Positions 13,661 through 64,000 of a stretch of 64,000 bases of DNA are shown in pieces. How positions within the stretch are numbered: the first letter of the stretch is position 1; the number at the start of each line of letters is the position of its first letter. This DNA comes from Actinotalea alkalitolerans (lineage in GTDB: Bacteria > Actinomycetota > Actinomycetes > Actinomycetales > Cellulomonadaceae), in NCBI RefSeq assembly GCF_023369855.1, contig NZ_JAMBPP010000002.1, forward strand, positions 1-64,000, read 5' to 3'. The notes below the pieces were generated by a model, which saw nothing but the letters and a program-made list of their open reading frames with translations, ran no database searches and was not told the DNA's origin. The position numbers and the translations under genes were made by a program.

Positions 13661-15739
13661 TCAGGGCTGGTCGGACGCCGACCTCGACTCGCGTCCTGCC
13701 GCGTGCTGGTCACGGACGTCCGCGACCTCGTCCCGCACGTCAGCGACGTCGTCGCGGTCGTCGGCCACGTCATCGCGGAGATCTGCCGCCACGTCCCGAT
13801 CATCGGCCTGCCACTCGCGGACGTCGGCGACACCCTGCCGCTCGTCAGCGATCTCGTCGCGCTCATCGGCGAGCACCTCGCGCGCGTCGGCGAGCACCTC
13901 ACGGTCGTCACCACGCCGGTCACGCAGGTCCGCCGCGAGGTCGCGGGCCGCACCCTCGGGGGCCGGCGCCGCGCCCGACGGAGCCGACCCGTCGTACCGC
14001 GACGGGTCGTGGTCGACCAACCAGCCGGCGAACTCGTCGAGCGGCATCGGGCGTGCGAGCAGGTAGCCCTGGACGAAGTCGCAGCCCAGCTGGCGCAGCA
14101 TCACCAGCTGGTCGGACGTCTCGACCCCCTCGGCCACCGCACGGATGCCGATGCTGTGCGCCAGCGCGATGGTCGACGCGACGATCGCGGTGTCGGCGGA
14201 GTCAGAACCCAGTCCCGCGACGAAGGACTGGTCGATCTTGAGCCGGTCGACCGGGAAGTGCTTGAGGTACAGCAGCGAGGAGTACCCGGTCCCGAAGTCG
14301 TCGAGGTCCACCCCCACGCCCAGACCCTTGAGCAGGTCCAGCGTCGCCGCAGCCGCCGGAAGGTCATGCATGAGGGCCGTCTCGGTGACCTCGAGGGTGA
14401 GGGCCGACGCCTCGCACCCACCCACCAGCAGCGCGGTGCGCAGCATGTCGGCGAGCTCCGGGTCGCCCAGCTGACGCGCCGAGACGTTGATGCTGACGTT
14501 GCGCAGGGCACCGGTGCCGACCAGCTCGGCCGCGGCGCGGCACGCGCTCTGCGTCACCCACCGTCCGAGCTCGAGGATCTGGCCCGTGCGCTCGGCCACG
14601 TCGAGGAACGAGGCGGGGCCGAGCAGCCCCGCGCCCGGCCGCTCCCAGCGCACCAGGGCCTCGACCCCGAGCACCTGGTTGGTCGCGAGCTCCATGATGG
14701 GCTGGAAGTGCAGTCGCAGCTCCCCGTCGCGGATGCCCTGCTGCAGGTCGTTGGCGAGCCGGAAGGCGCCCGTCGGACTGGTTCGCAGCACCTCGCTGTA
14801 CCAGACCACACGGTCGCGACCGGAGTCCTTGGCCACGCGCAGCGCATCGGTCGCCGCGGCGAGGAGGTCTGCCCCATGAGCCAGGTCGGTGGTCACGGCG
14901 CCCGTGCTCACGGTCAGGCGCAGGCTGTCGTCGCCCACCTGGAACGGCTCGTCGAGCACCTCGCCCACGGCGCGGATCAGCCGCTCGATCTCGACCGCAG
15001 GGTCGGGGGTGTCGGTCACCCAGACGAAGGAGTCGGCTTGCCATCGACCCAGCCCGGAACCGCCCACGGTGAGCAGCCGACGCGCCATCTCGGCCAGCAC
15101 GGCATCGCCGGCGTCGTGCCCGTAGGCCTCGTTGACCAGCGCCAGACCGTCCAGGTCGAGCAGGGCCACGCCGCGCCCCCTGCCGGGTCCCAACGGTGCG
15201 GCCAGCCGTTGCTGGAGGACACGACGTCCGGGGAGGCCGGTGAGCTCGTCCCGTTCGACCCCGGCGAACCTCGGGGCAGCCACCGCCTCGAGGCGCCTGT
15301 GCCCGTCCTGCCCCGAGTGTCCCGGGTCGGTACGCAGGATGGCCACCGCGCCCGCGAAGCGGTCATCCGCCCGGATCGGGGCGACGTGGGCACGGACCGT
15401 CATCTCCGCACCGTTCGACTGTTGCCACACCAGCCGGCCGGGGGGCGTGGGGCGTCCTCGCAGGAGGTCCGCCCAGAGGGCGTCGTACGCCGGACGGTGC
15501 GCGTCGGGCACGATGCTCCGTGCCGCGATCCCGTGCACGTCGGAACGCGAGCGACCGAGCAGGGCCTCGGCGGCAGGGTTCCACTCGCAGACCAGACCCT
15601 GCTCGTCGAGGATCACCGTCGCGTCGGGCGAGTGCTCGAGCAGGGTCGCGAACTGACGTCTGCGGGTCTCACCGCCACCGATGCCGGCGCGCGCGTGGCG
15701 GCCTCGCCGTGCGGGGTCGGCGTGCTCGTGCGGTGCCAT
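13661..15739 (-). CDS. PAS-GGDEF-EAL protein, probable c-di-GMP phosphodiesterase with heptad-repeat tail
   Basis: A 692-residue cytosolic protein. Residues about 30-130 form a PAS domain ([20 protein letters not shown]), 160-310 a GGDEF domain, 330-580 an EAL domain, and the last ~90 residues a charged repeat. The GGDEF signature is lost (WQADSF stands there), so cyclase activity is unlikely. The EAL domain keeps all the usual residues: [38 protein letters not shown] and VQGYLLARP. It should therefore hydrolyse c-di-GMP, with the PAS domain sensing an unknown signal. The tail repeats a seven-residue unit like ADxRDxV about ten times and should form a long helix. The ATG was chosen because the PAS domain follows directly. 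Confidence 0.9.
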
Positions 15740-15901
15740 GGGCCGCCCCTCTGCCTGACCGCGATCGCCGCAGAGCGCTCCGACGGCCGGTCCGAGGTCG
15801 AGGATACGCCGATGATCACACCGGCCGCGGGGCCTGTCCGGAATCTCTCTCTGTGCACGGATGCGCCTCCGTGAGACGCTGAGTCGGGCGAGGTGATCGC
15901 G

Positions 15902-62924: not shown

Positions 62925-63242
62925 TCAGCCCCGCCGGCGCAGGACCCGCTCGATGGCCGCATCGAGGCCGTCGGGCTCACGGCCGAGCGCTCCGACCACG
63001 GCGGCACGCACCTCGGCCCGTTGCTCGGCGGGCAGGGCCGCGACGTTCGGCTCGGTCGCGCACGACCCGGTCGTCCCGGGCGTCGCACCCGCCGTGTCCC
63101 GCGCGACGATGCGGAGCCCCCGCTCCCGTGCGCGCTCGCGAGCGAGGTCGGTCACGGTCGTGCGGGAGTCGACCTCGAGCAGCAGCTCGCCCGCGTCCGC
63201 GAGCCGGTCGATCTCCGCCCGGGTGATGAACGTGCGCGCCAT
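62925..63242 (-). CDS. Small microcompartment-operon protein, EutT/EutQ N-terminal-like
   Basis: A 105-residue protein. FITRAEIDRLADAGELLLEV followed by TTVTDLARERARERGLRIVARD resembles the N-terminal segment of ethanolamine-utilisation proteins EutT and EutQ (pattern FITxxxixxx…L…TPxARExAxxxGixi). The rest has SCATEPNVAALPAEQRAEVRAAVVGAL and a basic end. It lacks the catalytic domain of either enzyme. It starts five bases after the stop of the BMC-T gene, with GAGGA overlapping that stop, so it is in the same operon and probably the last gene. It may be an encapsulation or assembly helper; that is inference. Confidence 0.6.
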   Translation of the reverse strand: MARTFITRAEIDRLADAGELLLEVDSRTTVTDLARERARERGLRIVARDTAGATPGTTGSCATEPNVAALPAEQRAEVRAAVVGALGREPDGLDAAIERVLRRRG

Positions 63243-63247
63243 GATCC

Positions 63248-63871
63248 TCACATCCCTCGTATCGCCTCGACCGACGCCACCGCGGCGTCCCGTGCGGCCA
63301 GGATGTCCGCCTCCCGCCCGGCCATCCACAGCCGGCCGAACCGTCCGACGGACGTGACGTGCATGAGGTTGACCGGGGCCGCCTTCTCCGCCTCGTTGGC
63401 CGCCAGGTTGATGTAGGCCGCCGGCGCGACCTCGATGACGAGCATGGTCTGGCCGGCCACGAGCATCGTGCCGCGCGAGAACCGGTTGAGCAGCTGGGCC
63501 TGGTACGGGTTGACGTTGGTGATGACCTGCATCGAGGCGATCTCCGGACGGACCCGGTCGGCCAGGGTGCGTCCGAGCTCCTCGAGTGTCACCTCACCGG
63601 CCCGCAGGACGTCAGCCTGGGACAGCGAGTGCACCTCGAACATGCCGAACTCGCGCTCGACGACCTGCGCGCCGGGCCGCACGTCGGTGCTCTTGACGAC
63701 CTTGTCGATCACCCGGAACACCCAGTTGCCGGGAGCCATCTCGACGTAGAGGCTCGCCATCCCCTCGATCGGCGGGTCGCCCTGGGTGATCGCTCCGACG
63801 AAGGCCGCGTACTGCGGCTGCATCCGGTCCAGGTGGACGTAGGCCCGGAGCTGGAAGTCGCTGTCGGTCAT
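63248..63871 (-). CDS. Bacterial microcompartment shell protein, BMC-T type (tandem BMC domains)
   Basis: A 207-residue protein with two BMC-like halves. The first (about 35-105) has EGMASLYVEMAPGNWVFRVIDKVVKSTDV with GMFEVHSLSQADVLRAGEVTLEEL, the second (about 130-205) has MLVIEVAPAAYINLAANEAEKAA, NLMHVTSVGRFGRLWMAGREADI and AARDAAVASVEAI, a clear BMC domain. Two domains in one chain is the trimeric BMC-T class, which forms gated hexagonal shell tiles. The ATG overlaps the stop of the upstream gene (ATGA), and GGGAGG lies upstream. The enzyme core of the compartment must lie beyond the right edge. Confidence 0.9.
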   Translation of the reverse strand: MTDSDFQLRAYVHLDRMQPQYAAFVGAITQGDPPIEGMASLYVEMAPGNWVFRVIDKVVKSTDVRPGAQVVEREFGMFEVHSLSQADVLRAGEVTLEELGRTLADRVRPEIASMQVITNVNPYQAQLLNRFSRGTMLVAGQTMLVIEVAPAAYINLAANEAEKAAPVNLMHVTSVGRFGRLWMAGREADILAARDAAVASVEAIRGM

Positions 63872-64000
63872 GGTCTGCCTCCCGACCCGGAGCGCGCGAG
63901 CACCGCGGGCACGTCGTGGAACGCGATTCCCAGTGGCGTGACGAAGAGGGGGTTCCCCGGGACGACGGCCCGGATCCCGGTCACCGAGGTCACGACCTGC
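63868..64000 (-). CDS. C-terminal end of a probable EutJ-like protein (partial)
   Basis: Forty-three codons of the end of a gene running in from the right edge. The segment AVVPGNPLFVTPLGIAFHD resembles the end of EutJ (Hsp70/actin-fold protein of ethanolamine loci), where a similar …HSLFMTPLAIA… occurs. The position directly before a shell gene also fits EutJ. The match is short and made from memory, so it is tentative. Its TGA overlaps the ATG of the BMC-T gene, showing one operon. Confidence 0.4.
   Translation of the reverse strand, partial: QVVTSVTGIRAVVPGNPLFVTPLGIAFHDVPAVLARSGSGGRP

Follow-up and report, generated by a model that had tools for sequence, protein, structure and literature searches.

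The window, the whole 64,000 nt stretch analysed here, is C22:1-64000 of an Actinotalea genome of 4.37 Mb in 35 contigs, and 32 kb beyond its right edge were also read. Its right end is the 3′ end of a complete EUT microcompartment operon on the minus strand. The operon is a single run of 13 genes in the order eutH-N-A-B-C-L-E-M-Q-T-J, followed by a gene for a 207-aa shell protein and a last gene for a 105-aa protein, p105 (Table 1). Genes in the run overlap or are separated by short gaps, the largest of which (∼200 nt) precedes eutM. An earlier note on this DNA had described the 105-aa and 207-aa ORFs on the minus strand, the five-base gap between them and an ATGA overlap, all of which are exact. 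It had also predicted one operon with its enzymes past the right edge, and 11 eut genes were found to the right of the 207-aa gene; reading on to the right, as it proposed, located BMC-H, BMC-P, EutL and aldehyde dehydrogenase genes, all within 20 kb. No Rfam element was found at gathering score in C22:56001-76000. A 504-aa protein (C22:75414-76928), multi-membrane by eye, adjoins the operon start, and a frame between it and eutH (C22:75083-75370) resembles a fragment of a short-chain dehydrogenase.

Table 1. Features at the right end of the window and in the adjoining part of contig C22.
Feature	Position	Strand	Remarks
p105, 105 aa	62925..63242	-	last gene of operon; ORF
p105 47-residue module, N-terminal (proposed shell-docking domain)	63105..63242	-	profile, AlphaFold2
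p105 two C-terminal helices, residues 72-104	62931..63029	-	counterpart of EutQ H3/H4; family profile, AlphaFold2
Five-base gap between p105 and BMC-Tdp ORFs	63243-63247
BMC-Tdp, 207 aa, permuted tandem BMC	63248..63871	-	CcmP/CsoS1D type; homology, Glu72-Arg73
eutJ, 3′ end in window	63868..64000	-	whole gene C22:63868-64734
eutT	C22:64728-65507	-
eutQ	C22:65504-66133	-
eutM (BMC-H)	C22:66168-66461	-
eutE (aldehyde dehydrogenase)	C22:66662-68167	-
eutL	C22:68179-68835	-
eutC	C22:68862-69764	-
eutB	C22:69772-71139	-
eutA	C22:71181-72623	-
eutN (BMC-P)	C22:72638-72928	-
eutH	C22:72940-74250	-

EutB (646 bits, cut-off 554) and EutC (251.1 bits, cut-off 230) both score above the curated cut-offs, and because these signature enzymes are present the locus is assigned, from its sequence, to an EUT (ethanolamine) microcompartment. 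The statement in the earlier note that the gene mixture does not point clearly to a eut locus was mistaken, as EutB and EutC are accompanied by nine further eut genes. The gene upstream of the 207-aa ORF, to which the note had ascribed a EutJ-like end, is eutJ (NCBIfam EutJ 350.6 bits, cut-off 182). NCBIfam models for EutB, EutC, EutJ, EutL and EutM are matched above cut-off and those for EutE, EutT and EutQ below it; EutA, EutH, EutN and EutQ pass their own Pfam family models, and EutE and EutT pass broader ones. Both BMC-H and BMC-P are thus in the locus, as EutM (PF00936, 104.9 bits) and EutN (PF03319, 95.6 bits), and the operon EutQ carries a C-terminal cupin (PF06249, 111.6 bits). What is unusual in this EUT operon is the pair of genes at its 3′ end, for the 207-aa shell protein and for a free-standing EutQ N-terminal protein.

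By sequence, the 207-aa protein is a permuted tandem BMC protein of the CcmP/CsoS1D type (BMC-Tdp). The earlier note had described a BMC-T protein with two BMC domains, which is correct as to the two domains but not as to their arrangement, as they are circularly permuted. The BMC HMM search that it suggested for 63248-63871 gave a divided result, with the generic Pfam BMC model reaching only 21.5 bits (cut-off 24.5) over one stretch, and permuted BMC-T sequences matching over nearly the full length. Nine solved CcmP, CsoS1D, HO-5816 and RMM BMC-T chains match at 135-201 bits (E 3e-38 to 2e-58), and a warning that the generic model misses this class is given in the portion of Axen et al. drawn on here (PMC4207490). 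EutL matches at E 0.72 only, and identification as a second EutL was rejected. Glu72 and Arg73 do not vary among 5 orthologues that were aligned (own included). In the alignment with CcmP they coincide with Glu69-Arg70, described in the text used from PMC5853799 as the gating residues that open and close the pore. The protein therefore resembles CcmP, CsoS1D and HO-5816 in its permuted tandem BMC, its end-to-end match and its Glu-Arg gate pair, but differs in lying in a catabolic ethanolamine locus and in scoring 244.9 bits with the CcmP model NF053796, under the carboxysome cut-off of 340.

p105 looks like a stand-alone N-terminal half of EutQ without the cupin, a likeness that comes mainly from profiles. 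The single sequence has no Pfam match over cut-off and no NCBIfam match at E≤0.01, and it has no match to cupin PF06249, so it is not a whole EutQ. However, a profile of 72 p105 members matches E. coli EutQ end to end over residues 2-101 (E 1.1e-8, computed for a space of 4300 proteins), while 11 further E. coli Eut proteins tested gave no match at E≤1. The NCBIfam EutQ model finds 18 of the 44 family members in set A2 at E≤0.01, the window copy not among them. TIGR02536, an NCBIfam family of 207 positions (p105 has 105 aa) annotated as an ethanolamine utilisation protein with its role unnamed, finds 7 of the 44 at the same threshold, again without the window copy. The earlier description of p105 as EutT/EutQ N-terminal-like is therefore supported for EutQ, with EutT connected tentatively by one profile comparison (hhalign probability 73, E 3e-5 for that comparison). 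Assignments as BMC-P (Pfam EutN_CcmL, 16.3 bits, cut-off 25) and as a CII-like regulator (E 0.096) were not convincing.

The AlphaFold2 model of p105 (mean pLDDT 80, pTM 0.43) predicts an E-H-E-E-H-E module with block pLDDT of 87-96, a low-confidence stretch at residues 61-69 (pLDDT <50) that may be a disordered linker, and helices at 72-86 and 93-104. No PDB structure matched p105 at E≤0.001. In sequence and in the succession of module, linker and two helices p105 has the layout of residues 1-99 of Salmonella EutQ (PMC12487888), the profile match itself having been made with E. coli EutQ. The part of that paper drawn on here describes helices H1-H4 only, whereas the p105 model also has strands. 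Because EutQ dimerises through its C-terminus (PMC12487888), which is absent from p105, p105 may by analogy be monomeric.

The stretch 3′ of BMC-Tdp was read in 86 loci, after L010 had been dropped as a duplicate of L026. The 83 loci with at least 400 nt in this stretch were testable, and the module lies within 1 kb in 76 of these, comprising 21/23 with eutB, 1/1 with eutC only and 54/59 with neither on the contig. In 72 of the 76, fewer than 150 aa follow the module, two are fused to phosphotransacetylase (Pta) and two to malate/lactate dehydrogenase, Pfam having been run on one of each pair. No module was detected in the remaining 7 of 83 loci, which include the eutB-bearing L035 and L039. 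The position is nearly fixed: a module was found in 79/86 loci, and relative to where the BMC-Tdp alignment ends it starts at -4 to +96 nt (search span -50 to 1000 nt).

In the text available from Sutter et al. 2021 (PMC8217296), EUT3 is the sole EUT type described with BMC-Tdp, shares the EUT enzymes and has an aldehyde dehydrogenase near that of SPU6. The locus was filed as EUT3 because BMC-Tdp is present in an EUT locus and because its trees adjoin SPU6-like loci; the match thus draws on that published description and on trees. EutD, EutG, EutS and EutK are absent from the 13 genes, which separates the operon from EUT1, and a genome-wide PF00936 search gives EutM and EutL as its only matches at E≤0.001. 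A contig scan with five orthologues gave 153 pattern matches and 142 relatives, of which the best 80 were kept. In the tree set eutB and BMC-Tdp occur together in 25 loci (a 26th listed, L161, is the EUT2-like reference), from the Actinobacteria (among them Actinotalea, Kineosphaera, Tessaracoccus, Propioniciclava, Nocardioides, Nostocoides, Nanopelagicales, Nitriliruptoria and Egibacter), the Chloroflexi and the Spirochaetes. Within a sample at the level of the Cellulomonadaceae, the family of the window, this BMC-Tdp is found in 5/221 genomes, own included.

In the BMC-Tdp tree (86 rows) all 25 eutB loci fall in one clade of 39 (support 100/99). The 14 clade rows without eutB include contigs that start inside the operon (e.g. 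L032, L033 and L060), and Anaerolineae loci without eutB lie beside the clade. The EutE tree (68 rows) groups the 25 EUT rows with 39 others (99/97), leaving L161, L106/L107 and E. coli outside. Of these, 36 SPU6-like rows form a clade (100/100) nested among EUT branches; the EUT rows are not one clade, and their branches have no firm order. In the two SPU6-like Anaerolineae loci read, L062 and L068, RpiB and DeoC frames, which SPU6 also has, were recognised by eye from the translations. EutE thus lies beside SPU6 and apart from EUT1 and EUT2, of which one E. coli EUT1 and one EUT2-like reference were used, both on long branches.

Alternatively, the locus could be merely EUT2-like with a borrowed BMC-Tdp, which is improbable. 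EutE scores 532.5 bits with TIGR02518 (cut-off 620.1) and 204.4 with the PRK15398 model (cut-off 403), and by eye its C-terminal end carries an encapsulation peptide (EP)-like helix as in type I, EUT2-dominated, dehydrogenases. However, it joins the SPU6-like EutE, apart from the single EUT2-like reference, whose branch is long. That reference, L161 of Acetoanaerobium noterae, typed in this analysis, shares homologues of eutA-B-C-L-E-M-T-H-Q-J-N and, as in the EUT3-type operon, has a separate small ORF with the module (89 aa, E 2e-5), but no BMC-Tdp match. There PduL (L161:14623-15522) has a module-like C-terminal end, the small ORF is at 15561-15827, and EutQ has an EP-like helix instead of the module. 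A compartment of new or unknown type, in line with the reported lack of BMC-Tdp in other EUT types in the text cited from PMC8217296, is extremely unlikely, as EutB and EutC pass curated cut-offs, nine more eut genes are present and an EUT type with BMC-Tdp already has a published description, as EUT3. The less-studied type foreseen in the earlier note fits EUT3, which is little studied but already named; the newer part of the finding is p105.

A profile of the 47-residue module, built from 15 seeds that were all p105, was compared with 17,398 frames of 87 loci and gave 108 matches at E≤0.001, seeds included. No reversed or shuffled frame matched at this threshold, and 5 reversed frames did at E≤1. 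The profile finds p105 in the own genome (E 2e-19, p105 itself being a profile row) and also the operon EutQ (E 1e-9, among the locus frames). A phylum sample of 396 genomes has the module in 17 and a BMC domain in 52; with the own genome left out, 15 of the 16 module genomes have BMC, against 51/395 overall (p 9e-14). For the class to which Pelolinea submarina belongs, 150 genomes were sampled, 29 with the module and 56 with a BMC domain; once two genomes already used as a source of loci are set aside, 27/27 module genomes have BMC, against 54/148 overall (p 7e-15). Both p values are too small, because the genomes are related, because the profile itself derives from BMC loci, and because G932 and G1034 at least, both kept in the tests, have a sequence identical to a seed. 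At least 54 of 60 module hits share a contig with a BMC domain no more than 10 kb away, and no module was detected in 36/51 BMC genomes of the phylum sample and 27/54 of the class. A hit in G693, a genome without a BMC match, was taken as a chance match; its sequence is reminiscent of the subunit-binding domain of a 2-oxo-acid dehydrogenase E2.

The module is also found on other proteins. Carriers include Pta (L011 and L012), RpiB in ten loci (L149 and L151-L159), the C-terminus of PduL in eight loci (L117-L119, L121-L124 and L126) and, weakly (E about 1e-4 to 3e-4), malate/lactate dehydrogenase (L106, L107 and L130). Pfam agreed where it was run, on one fusion each of Pta and RpiB and on two each of dehydrogenase and PduL, the remaining carriers being identified by eye or by alignment. 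With TIGR02536, the C-terminus of the L161 PduL aligns to positions 141-205 (E 6.6e-9, 35.7 bits) and an RpiB N-terminus to positions 161-205 (E 0.003, 17.2 bits); each score is below the model cut-off of 152.6. For a PduL with the module at its C-terminus, AlphaFold2 gives a model of low overall quality (mean pLDDT 38.6), in which only the last ∼40 residues fare better (block means 64-88); these show an E-H-(E)-E-H-(E) order, which lends the module weak support. EutT is a tentative carrier by sequence comparison; the profile does not find the own-genome EutT at E≤0.001, and E. coli EutT reaches E 2.8 only.

We regard it as an even call whether catabolic microcompartments in general use the module as an exchangeable domain for docking on the shell, distinct from encapsulation peptides and serving EUT2, EUT3, SPU and other types. 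Such a domain would be N-terminal in EutQ, Pta, malate/lactate dehydrogenase, RpiB and probably EutT, and C-terminal in PduL and in an apparently membrane-anchored protein, with p105, as a free adaptor, being the module alone plus two cargo-binding helices. The last-mentioned C-terminal carrier, L049:10944-12584 (+), lies right after p105 and has a signal-like start, a membrane-like stretch recognised by eye and a module tail (E 6.5e-9); it is possibly a membrane tether of the compartment. The profile shows no second module of this kind in the sister locus L028. The matches in L106, L107 and L130 are at the dehydrogenase N-terminus, in or near BMC loci, and these enzymes possibly recycle NAD in place of alcohol dehydrogenase.

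The role proposed for p105 is that of a shell-cargo docking adaptor, because it matches EutQ 1-99, which bridges shell and cargo in Salmonella. In the sections of PMC12487888 used here, EutQ 1-99 alone suffices to target sfGFP to the compartment, H1/H2 associate with the shell at the EutL/EutM interface, H3/H4 bind the EutC and EutE encapsulation peptides, and assembly does not depend on the C-terminal half. By homology, p105 would attach to the inner face of the shell through its module and grip the same kinds of peptide with its two C-terminal helices, so that it would act as a free adaptor. It could be redundant with the operon EutQ, which also carries the module, and from the fixed gene order it may favour BMC-Tdp. 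The same near-fixed order would suit a dedicated BMC-Tdp partner, such as a plug or gate regulator on the luminal face, rather than a general adaptor. This is unlikely, as the 25 kb read of L161 include a small stand-alone module ORF yet no BMC-Tdp match, and as the same sections name only EutM, N, L, K and S for the shell in which Salmonella EutQ works. That p105 is a functionless, decaying duplicate of the EutQ N-terminus, as its short length, its place as the last gene and its 27-52% identity to 43 relatives in A2 might suggest, is very improbable given 72 open stand-alone copies in at least three phyla, with a fixed position and both parts visible. The explanation as a whole, an EUT3-type operon with BMC-Tdp as a gated door and p105 as a free shell-cargo adaptor, is considered quite probable.

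In the EUT3-type compartment, ethanolamine would enter by EutH and be converted by EutBC, inside a shell of EutM (BMC-H), EutN (BMC-P), EutL (BMC-Tsp) and BMC-Tdp, to acetaldehyde and ammonia, with EutA reactivating EutBC and EutT supplying the B12 cofactor. EutE would then convert acetaldehyde to acetyl-CoA. Neither a phosphotransacetylase nor an alcohol dehydrogenase is among the 13 operon genes, and because of this CoA and NAD(H) probably pass through the shell, for which the BMC-Tdp pore with its gate would be the likeliest door. The only Pta match in the own genome (C22:246699) is 180 kb away, and a search of 22 genomes of the group, own included, found no PduL at E≤0.001. Counting against BMC-Tdp as the CoA/NAD door, a Pta gene lies right after p105 with BMC-Tdp still present in L027 (Kineosphaera; Pfam) and L033 (by eye). 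In L011 (Pfam) and L012 (by eye) Pta is fused to the module in the place of p105. In these four loci the acetyl-CoA step probably takes place within the shell, whereas in Actinotalea it is more likely that CoA leaves through the shell.

No description of a stand-alone p105-like protein or of the shared module was found in the open-access literature that was searched. The tie between enzyme and shell made by EutQ 1-99 has so far been shown for a single species. With dozens of loci holding a free-standing relative and several kinds of enzyme bearing the module, that single case would, if the docking role is true, become a general, portable docking rule and the module a small tag for loading shells. 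The analysis also names a second, gated pore in an ethanolamine shell whose operon is without CoA- and NAD-recycling enzymes, so that cofactor traffic becomes a testable question.

An in-frame, stop-free extension precedes eutM, starting near the eutE stop (C22:66168-66665). By manual count, extensions of 39-153 aa occur in 18/25 eutB-bearing loci (including L030, L039 and L065), open frames being common by chance in G+C-rich loci. Plain EutM is given by a second start, in most cases preceded by a good ribosome site, and two EutM forms are possible. A Cys-rich motif is often present in the extension in Chloroflexi and Nitriliruptoria loci, and 3 of 6 extensions scanned have DUF5763 or CCCH zinc-finger matches under cut-off. 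The third codon position differs most in 5/5 pairs compared.
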